Part shown: in pieces, positions 7,171 to 23,206 of the stretch
How the letters are laid out: the number at the start of each line of letters is the position of its first letter
Position numbering within the stretch: position 1 is the stretch's first letter
Assembly (NCBI GenBank): GCA_000697455.1
Contig: JNET01032621.1
Coordinates: 1 to 44,365 of the forward strand
DNA length: 44,365 bases
Source: Basidiobolus heterosporus B8920
Lineage: Eukaryota > Basidiobolomycota > Basidiobolomycetes > Basidiobolales > Basidiobolaceae
Direction: 5' to 3'
Translations under genes and position numbers: made by a program
The notes under the pieces: model-generated
The model's database searches: none
Seen by the model: only the letters and a program-made list of their open reading frames with translations
What the model was told of the DNA's origin: nothing

Positions 7171-8999
7171 ATGTCAGAGTTTTCTTGTTTGCTGGAAAAG
7201 CGTACTATTTTGGATGGTACCAAGCCGTTTAACTTCCCTATACTTACCAACGAATCCAAAAACACGAAGATGGAAAGTATCGAAATCAAAAGTACCAACG
7301 TGGAAAGCAACGAAACCAAAAGTATGAAGGTGAAAAGCATTGAAATCAAAAGTACCAACGTGGAAAGCAACGAAACCAAAAGTATGAAGGTGAAAAGCAT
7401 TGAAATCAAAAGTGCCAAGTTAGAAAGCAACGGAACTAAAAGTACGAAGGTGAAAACCATCGAAGCCCCTCTCCAATCACACCAATTTACGTTCCAGGAG
7501 AGACCCTCTCTTTTCGATGTTCCAACCATGGTCAAGGAAGAGAATCCATTCCGCGGGTTCTACATTTTGTTCTGGATTACTATGGGAGTCTTTTTGATCC
7601 AAACATTCATAAACAACCTAAAACAAACAGGGCACATTACTGGCTCTTATCTATATTCGGTGTTATCCAAGGATCTGGGCAGTTTGTTCATTTCTGATAT
7701 GGTGATGATTGCTGCCACTTTCATTAGTCTGGGAATCCAAAAAGCCATCGTATACAGATGGATCCATAGAGAATATGCCGGCATGGTTATCCAACATGTA
7801 TATCAAACCTCTTATCTGGCCTTCGCCATCAGCTGGGCGCTTTGGAAGTATGCCTCATTAATCAGGTTTTGAAAAATTATGCATAACTGACATTTGTGAT
7901 ATTGGTAGAGACTGGCCCTGGGTTCAATGCACCTTCTTTGTGTTGCATGCTCTCGTCAACTTGATGAAGGTTCACTCTTACATATGTTATAATGGTGAAT
8001 TATCTGTATACCACGAGCAACTAGCCATACTGCTCAAGGAGGAAGAAGCTATGATTAAGGCTCAGAAGAAAGAAGACCAGAAATCTGACGAAAATGCACT
8101 TGCTGAACTAAGAGACCAGATCGATCACCTTCGTGCTAATCTAACTAAGGGAAGCGTCCAGTACCCAGAGAATGTTACAGTGAAAAACTTTTGGGAATAC
8201 CTGCTGTTCCCTACAGTAGTATACGAACTAGAGTATCCAAGAACCAAATGGTATGAATCTACAGACGTAGAAGATATTCAAGCAAGAACAAACACTAACT
8301 CATTTGTATAGCATTCGCCCATGGTATCTGTTTGAAAAGTGTTTGGCTTTAGCGGGAACCTTTACTCTCGCATACGTATTAGTCGAGAATCAAATCATCC
8401 CTGTGTTGAACGAGTCTGTTGATACCTGGGTGGTATACACCGTTCTACAGCTCATATTTCCATTCATGCTGTCGTTTCTTTTCATATTCTACATCATGTT
8501 CGAGTGCGTCTGTAACGGATTTGCTGAGATCAGTAGGTTAGTAATATGTGATTGGGTCTTGATTTGGGAAGTGTTACTTATGCCAACGAAATCTAGATTC
8601 GCTGATAGATCGTTCTACGATGATTGGTGGAACTGTACCACGTTCGATGAATACGCACGTAAATGGAACAAACCAGTTCATCTATTTTTGCTTCGACATG
8701 TCTACCTGCAATCCATTCAAACGTACAAGCTTTCTAAAAAGAGCGCTACTTATTTGACATTCTTACTCAGCTCCTGTGTGCATGAGCTAGTTATGGTCGT
8801 CATCACCAGGAGATTCCGACCATATCTGTTCTTTTTGCAGATGTTCCAACTTCCATTGATTTGGATGGCCAGATTGCCAATTGTACGTCGGCATCCTTCG
8901 CTAGGAATCACCTTATTTTGGATGGGCATTCTCTCAGGCCCCCCATTACTTGCTGTTCTTTACTGCAGACAGCTAATTATTGAAGCCAGTAGTGCATAG
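7171..8999 (+). CDS. sterol O-acyltransferase / DGAT1-type MBOAT
   Basis: ER membrane acyltransferase that esterifies sterol or diacylglycerol with acyl-CoA for lipid-droplet storage (ARE1/ARE2, SOAT, DGAT1 family). Exons 7171-7865, 7909-8250, 8312-8536 and 8597-8999 give 554 residues. Family signatures: FRGFYILFWITMGVF, RDWPWVQCTFFVLHALVNLM, RFADRSFYDDWWNCTTFDEY (the FYxDWWN motif), RKWNKPVHLFLLRHVY, and SCVHELVMVV with the MBOAT active-site His. The HELVM-to-LFFLQM stretch looks more ARE/SOAT than DGAT1. The 8537-8596 intron is 60 nt without a stop and could be missed. Residues 31-100 are a Lys/Glu/Ser-rich decapeptide repeat, an unusual cytosolic extension. The gene converges on the P450, 131 bp away. 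Confidence 0.9.
7261..7470 (+). repeat. 30-bp coding tandem repeat (decapeptide array)
   Basis: Seven 30-nt units encode decapeptides of the type STNVESNETK and SMKVKSIEIK, alternating in a 60-nt higher-order unit. The copies at 7291-7350 and 7351-7410 are identical, which points to recent duplication; the end units are degenerate. They code for residues 31-100 of the acyltransferase. Confidence 0.95.
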
Positions 9000-20607: not shown

Positions 20608-20945
20608 GGCTAGAAAAAAGAACTGGGTTATAATAGGAAGTTCTTTAATTGCTCGGGAACTGAGTTGAACAGCGGATTGGTGACTTTGTTAGACTAGTGT
20701 GCGTGGGTGTCAGAGTACGCGAGTGTCAGTGTGTGTAGCCACCATGGCGAGCTCTGCTTTTCCCCCTTCCTCCCCTTCCTCCTCGTTCTCTCTTTTCTCA
20801 TTATCAATCAATTCAAGGTCATGTGGTATCGCACATGATTTCTTTCATAGATAATGGGGTAATTGTTTCTATATTATTGTCGTGATTATGGTTAACCGAG
20901 ATCAGTCGGCATCTCTTCGATAGGCTAAACTTATGTTAACAACGA

Positions 20946-20987
20946 TTGACGGTTGACGGTTGACGGTTGACCGTTAACCGTTAACCA
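20946..20987 (+). repeat. six-unit 7-bp repeat forming a 16-bp hairpin
   Basis: Six heptamers change stepwise: TTGACGG three times, TTGACCG, TTAACCG, TTAACCA. As a result 20951-20966 pairs with 20971-20986 along 16 positions around the loop TTGA, with two G-T positions that become G-U wobbles in RNA. It lies about 270 bp upstream of the kinase ATG and may be in its 5' UTR or promoter. Confidence 0.85.
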
Positions 20988-21257: not shown

Positions 21258-23206
21258 ATGAATAAGATTCCAGCGAAACTTCATGATAAAATCAAATATT
21301 TTGCCACCTTTCCCCAAACAGGAGTATCTCTCCGACAGATGGTGAAGTTCGGTTAGTTTACTTCAAAACAGAGTAAGAATTTTCCCATGGTTTAACCTGA
21401 TGCGGTTTATCGAGAATAGGTCAAAAACCATCACAGGGGACTCTTCTAAGGGCTAGTCAATTTCTGTTGGGTTTGTACTTCTATAACATGCTTTACTAGT
21501 AATTCTTTTGAAAAGGTAGTAACAGCGTATATTTCAGAGGAGCTTCCTATCCGTCTAGCTCATCGTGTGGTTGAACTTGAAAATCTTCCGCATGGCCTTA
21601 GTTTGATGCCTTCAGTGATAAAAGTCAAAGATTGGTACGCCGAGTCCTTTTCCGTAAGCAAAGTCCAAACAAAATCTCATCTGTTTCGACCTAGGATAAC
21701 CATGATTGATGCAGGACTTCACGAACTTCCCTAGACCGGATTTGCCTCAGGATGTTAGAGACAAACTAAAGGCCACCCTACGTCCCATCAAGGATGGAAT
21801 TGAACTAACAAATTCTAGCAAGCATTCAATCTATGAAAATGGAAATCGTTCGGTTCCATTGCCTCACAGGTTGACAATCATCCACAAATTATATATCATG
21901 GGCCGCCTCTAATCTCATCAATCATTTAGATATTATGCTTCAGTCAAAGATATCGAATTCCCATCTGAGATTGGGGAGTACAACAATGCGTTCTGTCGTA
22001 TGATTGAAGGGGTCAAGCGGAGACACGATCCTGTTGTAACAACTATTGTAAGCATACATTTCGTTAGAATGCTTTATGATCTTGCTCTAACCAGTTATTC
22101 CTTAATAGGGTATGTTGTGATAATTGCTCTGGATGGTAACAACAAGTTTAGTATCTAACATCAAATTTGCCCCCAAGCAAACGGGATTCTGGAGTTTAAA
22201 CATGCTCGGAGGTCTGACAATGTCGATGTGGATATACAGTCATTTTTGGATCGCTTCTACATGTCACGTATCGGAATCCGTATGCTAATTGGTAAATGGT
22301 GCAGATTTTACATACACATGAACAACCCAAGGCTTACTTCCATGTCGTGAAGGTCAACACATCACCCTGCAAAAAGGTCCACACAACCCTGATCATGTGG
22401 GTATCATTTGCACCAAAACAAATCTAGCTGAGGTCGCCCAGGAGGCCATAGATAACGCAAAGTTCATTTGTGAAGATTATTATGGGCTCTTCAGAGCACC
22501 GGAGGTCAGATTAATTTGCAAAGATGATTTGGAATTCATGTACGTTCCGAGCCATCTTCATCACATGCTCTTTGAGCTGTTGAAGAATAGTCTGAGAGCC
22601 ATAGTGGAAACCTACGGCACGGACCCAGATGACAGCTATCCACCGATCAAAATCATCGTTGCTGAAGGAAAAGAGGTTCGACCCATATTAGTGTTTAATT
22701 AAGCATTCGTCCATTGCTTACCCATTTTGTTAAGGATATAACCATTAAAATCTCGGATGAGGGCGGTGGGATCCCAAGAAGTGGATTGCCAATGGTTTGG
22801 ACTTATATGTTAGTATTGATTTCGATAGCGAATGCCAGCTTGAGCTTCTCGTGCGCTAACCTATTACTGCCAGGTATACCACCGCATCAACTCCTTCATT
22901 AGACCCAGATTTCAATCGGAGTGATTTCAAGGCTCCCCTCGCTGGTTTTGGATACGGTCTGCCACTGAGTCGTTTGGTGAGTTTATAGAGTTGTTCTTTT
23001 CTCGCATCGTCTAGGCTCCTTGGACCTAATCTTAGTTTCTAGTACTCCCGATATTTTGGTGGTGACCTAAAGATCATATCTATGGAAGGGTAATAGCAAC
23101 GCCGTATATTGTTAGGCCACTCACTAACCTCCATTCTGTTAGGTACGGGACTGATGCCTACCTTCATCTATCTCGTCTCAGTGATAGTGAGGAGCCATTG
23201 CCTTAG
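21258..23206 (+). CDS. mitochondrial pyruvate/branched-chain dehydrogenase kinase
   Basis: GHKL-fold protein kinase of the PDK/BCKDK family that phosphorylates and inactivates the E1 subunit of matrix 2-oxoacid dehydrogenases. Exons 21258-21351, 21420-21470, 21538-21653, 21715-21869, 21930-22047, 22109 (one nucleotide), 22178-22291, 22353-22675, 22735-22808, 22874-22976, 23043-23089 and 23143-23206; 419 residues. The allosteric helical domain has FPQTGVSLRQMVKFGQKPSQ, LPIRLAHRVVEL and RRHDPVVTT; the ATP domain has N-box ELLKNSLRA (Glu291, Asn295), G1 DEGGG (332-336) and G2 GFGYGLP (373-379), then YGTDAYLHL near the end. No clear presequence is seen; an in-frame stop precedes the ATG. PDK versus BCKDK cannot be settled here. 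Confidence 0.9.
22048..22177 (+). other. two introns flanking a 1-nt microexon
   Basis: Intron 22048-22108 (61 nt; GTAAGC donor, CTAACC branch-like site, TAG end) and intron 22110-22177 (68 nt; GTATGT donor, CTAACA branch-like site, AAG end) leave only G22109 between them. That G plus CA from the next exon makes Ala179 in the conserved VVTTIANGILEFK region. Treating the 130 nt as one intron shifts the frame and hits a stop. Confidence 0.75.

Follow-up and report, generated by a model that had tools for sequence, protein, structure and literature searches.

The kinase gene analyzed here raises the question of how its reading frame is carried from the fifth exon into the next recognizable coding block, and whether the intervening interval holds a coding exon of a single nucleotide. 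The gene occupies positions 21258..23206 of the forward strand, the latter being the end of its stop codon, in a window of 44,365 nt (the whole stretch of DNA that was analyzed, which is contig C260 of an 8.1-Mb assembly in 428 contigs). Its structure, 12 exons encoding 419 amino acids, was derived by hand splicing, Pfam searches and comparison with a homologue. The encoded protein contains BCDHK_Adom3 and HATPase_c domains, both scoring over the Pfam cut-off, and is therefore assigned to the pyruvate/branched-chain dehydrogenase kinase (PDK/BCKDK) family. Among the matches listed, the closest is a protein of equal length from Basidiobolus meristosporus CBS 931.73, with 94% identity over 419 residues, followed by two B. 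ranarum proteins with 90% and 87% identity, which places the source organism within or near Basidiobolus.

Exon 5 (21930..22047, forward strand) ends in phase 0 after the ATT codon that completes VVTTI. Exon 7 (22178..22291, forward strand) starts with CA AAC GGG ATT CTG, that is, (x)CA followed by NGIL and onwards through NGILEFK, and is thus one base short of what is needed to read TTIANG. The 130-nt gap between these exons holds AG/G/GTATGT at 22107-22115, in which the G at 22109 has AG before it and GT after it, with complete sequence signals of U2-type introns on either side. Intron A (22048..22108) is 61 nt long and has a GTAAGC donor, a TAG acceptor and a CTAAC branch-site motif at 22087..22091, whereas intron B (22110..22177) is 68 nt long and has a GTATGT donor, an AAG acceptor and a CTAAC motif at 22155..22159, all of these features lying on the forward strand. 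The CTAAC motif begins 22 nt before the end of intron A and 23 nt before the end of intron B. If included in the mRNA, the G at 22109 (forward strand) would form exon 6 on its own and provide the first base of the Ala179 codon (G/CA). With this G the gene encodes the 419-residue kinase, its omission truncates the product to 214 residues, and the frame of the conserved kinase protein needs base 22109. A preliminary description of the locus had given the end of exon 5, the position of the G, the sizes of both flanking introns, the phase-0 end after VVTTI, the base missing from the next block, the consensus donors with one CTAAC-type branch site per intron, and the frameshift and stop that a single 130-nt intron would cause, and the sequence agrees with it on each of these points. 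It had also considered introns of 61 and 68 nt to be normal for the gene, in keeping with the nine remaining introns, which measure 68, 67, 61, 60, 61, 59, 65, 66 and 53 nt; an exact CTAAC is present in 2 of these nine, versus both introns flanking 22109. Elsewhere in the window, fusion of open reading frames yielded 10 candidate introns, half of them 58-61 nt and the other half 104-162 nt long; going by the longer candidates, introns of neighbouring genes may exceed those of the kinase gene in length. Intron-length statistics computed on 244 kb revealed no clear peak above a reversed-sequence control. Taken together with the evidence presented below, a one-base exon is very probably the best account of this junction.

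The likelihood of such an arrangement arising by chance was assessed with 200,000 dinucleotide shuffles of the interval, in which the first 6 and last 30 bases were kept fixed. Under a strict criterion, demanding a one-base exon, CTAAC, a GTATGT or GTAAGT donor and proper spacing, the configuration was obtained in 7 of the 200,000 shuffles (3.5e-5); under a loose consensus this frequency was 1.3e-3, and it reached 5.5e-3 for any micro-exon of 1, 4, 7, 10 or 13 nt. A bare AG.GT arises mid-interval in 11% of shuffles. Hence, it is the joint occurrence of frame, branch sites, donors and sizes that makes the evidence strong. Across the 8.1-Mb assembly, the strict branch-AG-N-donor-branch pattern has one match, at the 22109 site, and the same pattern with a spacing of 2, 3 or 4 nt has 0 matches. 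Reading the assembly backward as a control, however, produced 5 matches for the 1-nt spacing (and 0, 0 and 1 for 2, 3 and 4 nt), so the genomic count proves little by itself. The shuffling results bear on the possibility that the junction contains a single 130-nt intron and that one base was lost at an exon edge through an assembly or sequencing error. An extra G at either exon edge would restore the frame, and one assembly was seen. Such an error would nevertheless leave unexplained the internal AG/G/GTATGT and the second CTAAC, as well as the doubled length of the gap, and the irregularities and the one-G deficit observed at the same site in other species argue against it, making this a very improbable explanation.

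In order to compare the one-base exon with other ways of splicing the interval, we listed the single micro-exons whose length is 1 mod 3, keeping the donor at 22048 and the acceptor at 22177 constant, together with single introns that use a GT or GC donor. The one-nucleotide exon is the sole enumerated structure that gives TTIANG without gaining or losing residues; the remaining structures gain or lose residues, contain stops or require introns that are unusably short. Eight splice models were scored against a profile built from 200 homologues, with the window protein and 16 scarred sequences (those presenting putative annotation scars at the junction) omitted. The one-nucleotide exon obtained the top score, 754.0 bits, followed by a GC-donor model (746.9 bits), a 4-nt exon (745.9 bits), a 19-nt exon (741.0 bits) and a 42-nt intron (732.4 bits), and models skipping the G or retaining introns received 235.5-237.8 bits (237.8 for skipping). 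Two of the single-intron models are open in frame, a possibility omitted from the preliminary description, whose preferred one-nucleotide exon still scores best: one uses a donor at 22136, giving an intron of 42 nt and 29 additional residues, and the other a GC donor at 22052, giving an intron of 126 nt and one additional residue. It is hardly to be expected that either is used instead of the one-nucleotide exon. At 42 nt, the first intron falls under the 53-68 nt range of the gene, and both intron size and homologues speak against the donor at 22136. The GC donor reads GCATAC, which is poor relative to the donor consensus. An insert from alternative splicing would, moreover, break the VVTTxAxG motif, and both models score below the one-nucleotide exon against the profile.

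The conservation of the site was analyzed in 216 distinct homologues, compiled from three protein searches by taking the best 120 of 5847, 5170 and 5705 matches. Scarred proteins served as seeds for the second and third searches, so that scars make up a larger fraction of the pooled homologues. The B. meristosporus protein reads VVTTIANG at the site, and solved PDK chains are gapless through it in two alignments. With the window protein included in the alignment, 15 of 217 sequences present an indel at residues 178-181, as compared to at most 5 of 217 in comparison windows of the kinase core, defined as four-residue windows within residues 150-414 after removal of those overlapping the site and of three loops with length differences in 51-101 sequences. 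For the first, unseeded search alone, indels were found at the site in 9 of 121 sequences and in at most 4 at other windows. Another intron of the gene, at codon 138, has indels nearby in 14 sequences, and was left out as a comparison because it lies beside a length-variable linker. These alignment counts supersede those of a regular expression applied to the 216 relatives, which classified 171 as having the regular A.G form and 13 as irregular, and whose pattern did not fit the remaining 32. The carriers of the 15 indels are two B. ranarum proteins, Geosiphon, two Ambispora proteins, Funneliformis, Diversispora, Cetraspora, Dentiscutata, Paraglomus, Acaulospora, Dichotomocladium, Linnemannia, and the incompletely named P0008 and P0029; those that are named we take to be, without exception, zygomycete-grade fungi. 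Many relatives read regularly at the site, including early-diverging fungi (e.g. P0005, P0007, P0010, P0012), and scars are thus a minority; for these regular early-diverging fungi, either the scar pattern is not universal or their models are correct.

Judged by eye, the indels at the site read as annotation scars, and errors at this same junction in the gene models of relatives are what the preliminary description had led one to expect when it held that annotation would go wrong here. Frame decoding was scripted for a single protein, P0048 of Neoconidiobolus thromboides, and the remaining scars were read by eye. Among the B. ranarum proteins, P0002 has VSY after TTI, as if a GTAAGY donor had been read through, and P0003 has GTY in the same position, as would result from extension of the G exon into a GTAC donor. 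Two residues are absent (TTV-GI) from the proteins of Geosiphon and Funneliformis and from both Ambispora proteins, a pattern that joining a donor directly after V to the AG inside a CAG codon would produce, and the scars of Cetraspora and Dentiscutata also appear compatible with a donor directly after V. The G-K scars of P0008, P0029, P0123, P0126 and P0129 would agree equally well with a micro-exon that had been stretched and with a single intron in phase 1, the G then belonging to the preceding exon, and decoding by eye of P0054 and P0139 gave no reading. One of the retrieved proteins, P0025, is listed as belonging to the plant Anthurium amnicola and is 86% identical to a Funneliformis kinase, and probably represents fungal contamination of a plant data set.

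The strongest case among relatives for the one-base exon is that of N. thromboides P0048, which stands outside the 15 of 217 indel count. This protein reads VVTTL-LKELWNIN, and its back-translated sequence, preceded by one G, becomes AQGIVEYK, a result that is obtained with no other single base and with no two bases. Among 33,631 distinct octamers taken from the retrieved proteins, only the one from P0048 passes with a G. Its nearest listed relatives, P0017 and P0023, which are 73% identical to it and encoded on contigs of 1349 and 1534 bases, read VVTTLAQGIVEYK. The back-translation and the reading of these relatives thus indicate that what the P0048 model is missing at this junction is precisely the G that begins the corresponding Ala codon, and a shared one-base exon seems the likeliest cause of this error. 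From such errors in their gene models we infer that the same exon is present in other Basidiobolus species and in Neoconidiobolus. We consider the chances roughly even that the G exon is ancient, predating the split of Basidiobolus, Entomophthorales (Neoconidiobolus) and arbuscular mycorrhizal fungi, and that it has been kept ever since and missed or mangled in many models. Were this the case, fungi would have spliced a one-nucleotide exon reliably, through intron definition, for very long periods, and, should the exon be as widespread as the scars hint, some deposited kinase sequences of early-diverging fungi would be wrong in a conserved motif. The clustering of indels at one junction of homologous gene models also suggests a cheap means to search for hidden micro-exons without RNA.

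Introns that are short and carry their own strong signals are recognized singly, by intron definition. In the mechanism that we propose, the G at 22109 would act as a one-nucleotide coding exon between adjacent U2-type introns of 61 and 68 nt, each of which, having its own donor, CTAAC and acceptor, would be recognized by intron definition. Two successive removal reactions would then leave the G between ATT and CA, generating the GCA codon of Ala179, which belongs to the conserved motif VVTTxA(Q/N)G, and a mature junction of the form ATT-G-CAAACGGG; skipping of the G would result in a frameshift and an early stop, with a 214-residue product. Since a single base separates the first acceptor from the second donor, factors at these two sites would overlap and are unlikely to occupy them together, so that removal would probably be sequential. 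Either order of removal would be possible, because the second donor has a G at -1 both before and after the first splice, and the idea in the preliminary description that the first splice creates the context of the second donor is for this reason unneeded. The same combination of intron definition and removal of introns one by one is proposed for plant APC11, and in the potato mini-exon cited in that report the downstream intron is described as leaving first (PMC4674806).

Instead of two introns around an exon, the interval might conceivably hold a nested twin intron (stwintron) or a minor (U12) intron, explanations to which we assign a very small probability. The Lipomyces stwintrons, strict and sensu lato, resemble the kinase junction in consisting of two neighbouring U2 introns excised in two consecutive reactions, but they are nested, and the stwintron route leaves no base between the introns (PMC7138796). 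According to the definition used here (PMC12403724), a [D1,2] stwintron needs the G of the external donor just before the internal donor, whereas the base before GTAAGC is T. On our reading, nestings of the enumerated sites lose the G and the frame, or result in the same two introns again. Stwintrons are the nearest other fungal arrangement, without their defining nesting being found in the kinase gene. B. meristosporus is described as rich in minor introns, with the highest density found in fungi (PMC10639083). The interval itself contains TTCCTTAAT at 22098-22106, which resembles a U12 branch site. The donors GTAAGC and GTATGT are, however, U2-type, and the U12-like motif directly abuts the AG, too near to be able to act as the branch site of intron A. 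U12 introns have an RTATCCTT donor and a TTCCTTRAY branch site located some 10-20 nt before the acceptor; TTCCTTAAT is near the latter consensus.

One-nucleotide exons had been regarded in the preliminary description as rare and known in plants. Plant cases are indeed on record, but so is one in a fungus: a 2026 report described the exon of CYP621A in Fusarium as the first of its kind among fungal genes (PMC12940212). CYP621A shares with the kinase a fungal nuclear gene as its setting, a G within AG/G/GT, a conserved protein motif, wrong gene models and an undivided gap of about twice the usual intron (139 nt, as compared to 130 nt in the kinase); it differs in gene and fungal lineage, and its exon is backed by 18 RNA reads, whereas the kinase exon is predicted from sequence signals (PMC12940212). 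Plant APC11 likewise needs a single base between two introns to maintain the frame, with successive intron definition proposed, but there the base is an A and was proven by cDNA and mutation (PMC4674806). The exon of plant VPS55 is comparable in being conserved between distant species and missed by annotation, and differs in belonging to a plant gene and having RNA-seq and RT-PCR support (PMC8831610). A placozoan mitochondrial case has also been described (PMC5436844). Among the titles and abstracts listed by our literature search, none mentions a one-nucleotide exon for this gene or for Basidiobolus. With the kinase, a conserved metabolic regulator, fungi would have a second gene among the few cases of one-nucleotide exons, and a series of species would be at hand in which to study how splicing proceeds, and in what sequence, when a single base separates the acceptor of one intron from the donor of the next.

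Two more genes of the kinase family are found in the same genome, L002 (1501-1977, contig C414) and L003 (1501-1965, contig C58), with open frames of 414 aa and 361 aa, respectively, the latter having one TAG within its Pfam match. The C58 paralogue is intronless and gapless at the site in the multiple alignment, whereas pairwise BLASTP aligns the region otherwise, with gaps; it was dropped as a length marker on account of its divergence, the conflicting alignments and the TAG in the Pfam match. The search of genome contigs for the DNA of relatives returned 5 loci (L027-L031), all on contigs from bacterial metagenome-assembled genomes (among them two Acidobacteria, Acidimicrobiia and Sumerlaeia) and each encoding a near full-length homologue of the kinase with 39-50% identity, and the search of viral contigs returned none. 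In the window, TTAGGG/CCCTAA hexamers occur 20 times versus about 19 expected, a tandem repeat array with a 30/60-bp unit is located at 7248-7464, and a short tandem repeat of ACGGTTG, with 4.9 copies, lies upstream of the kinase gene at 20942-20975.
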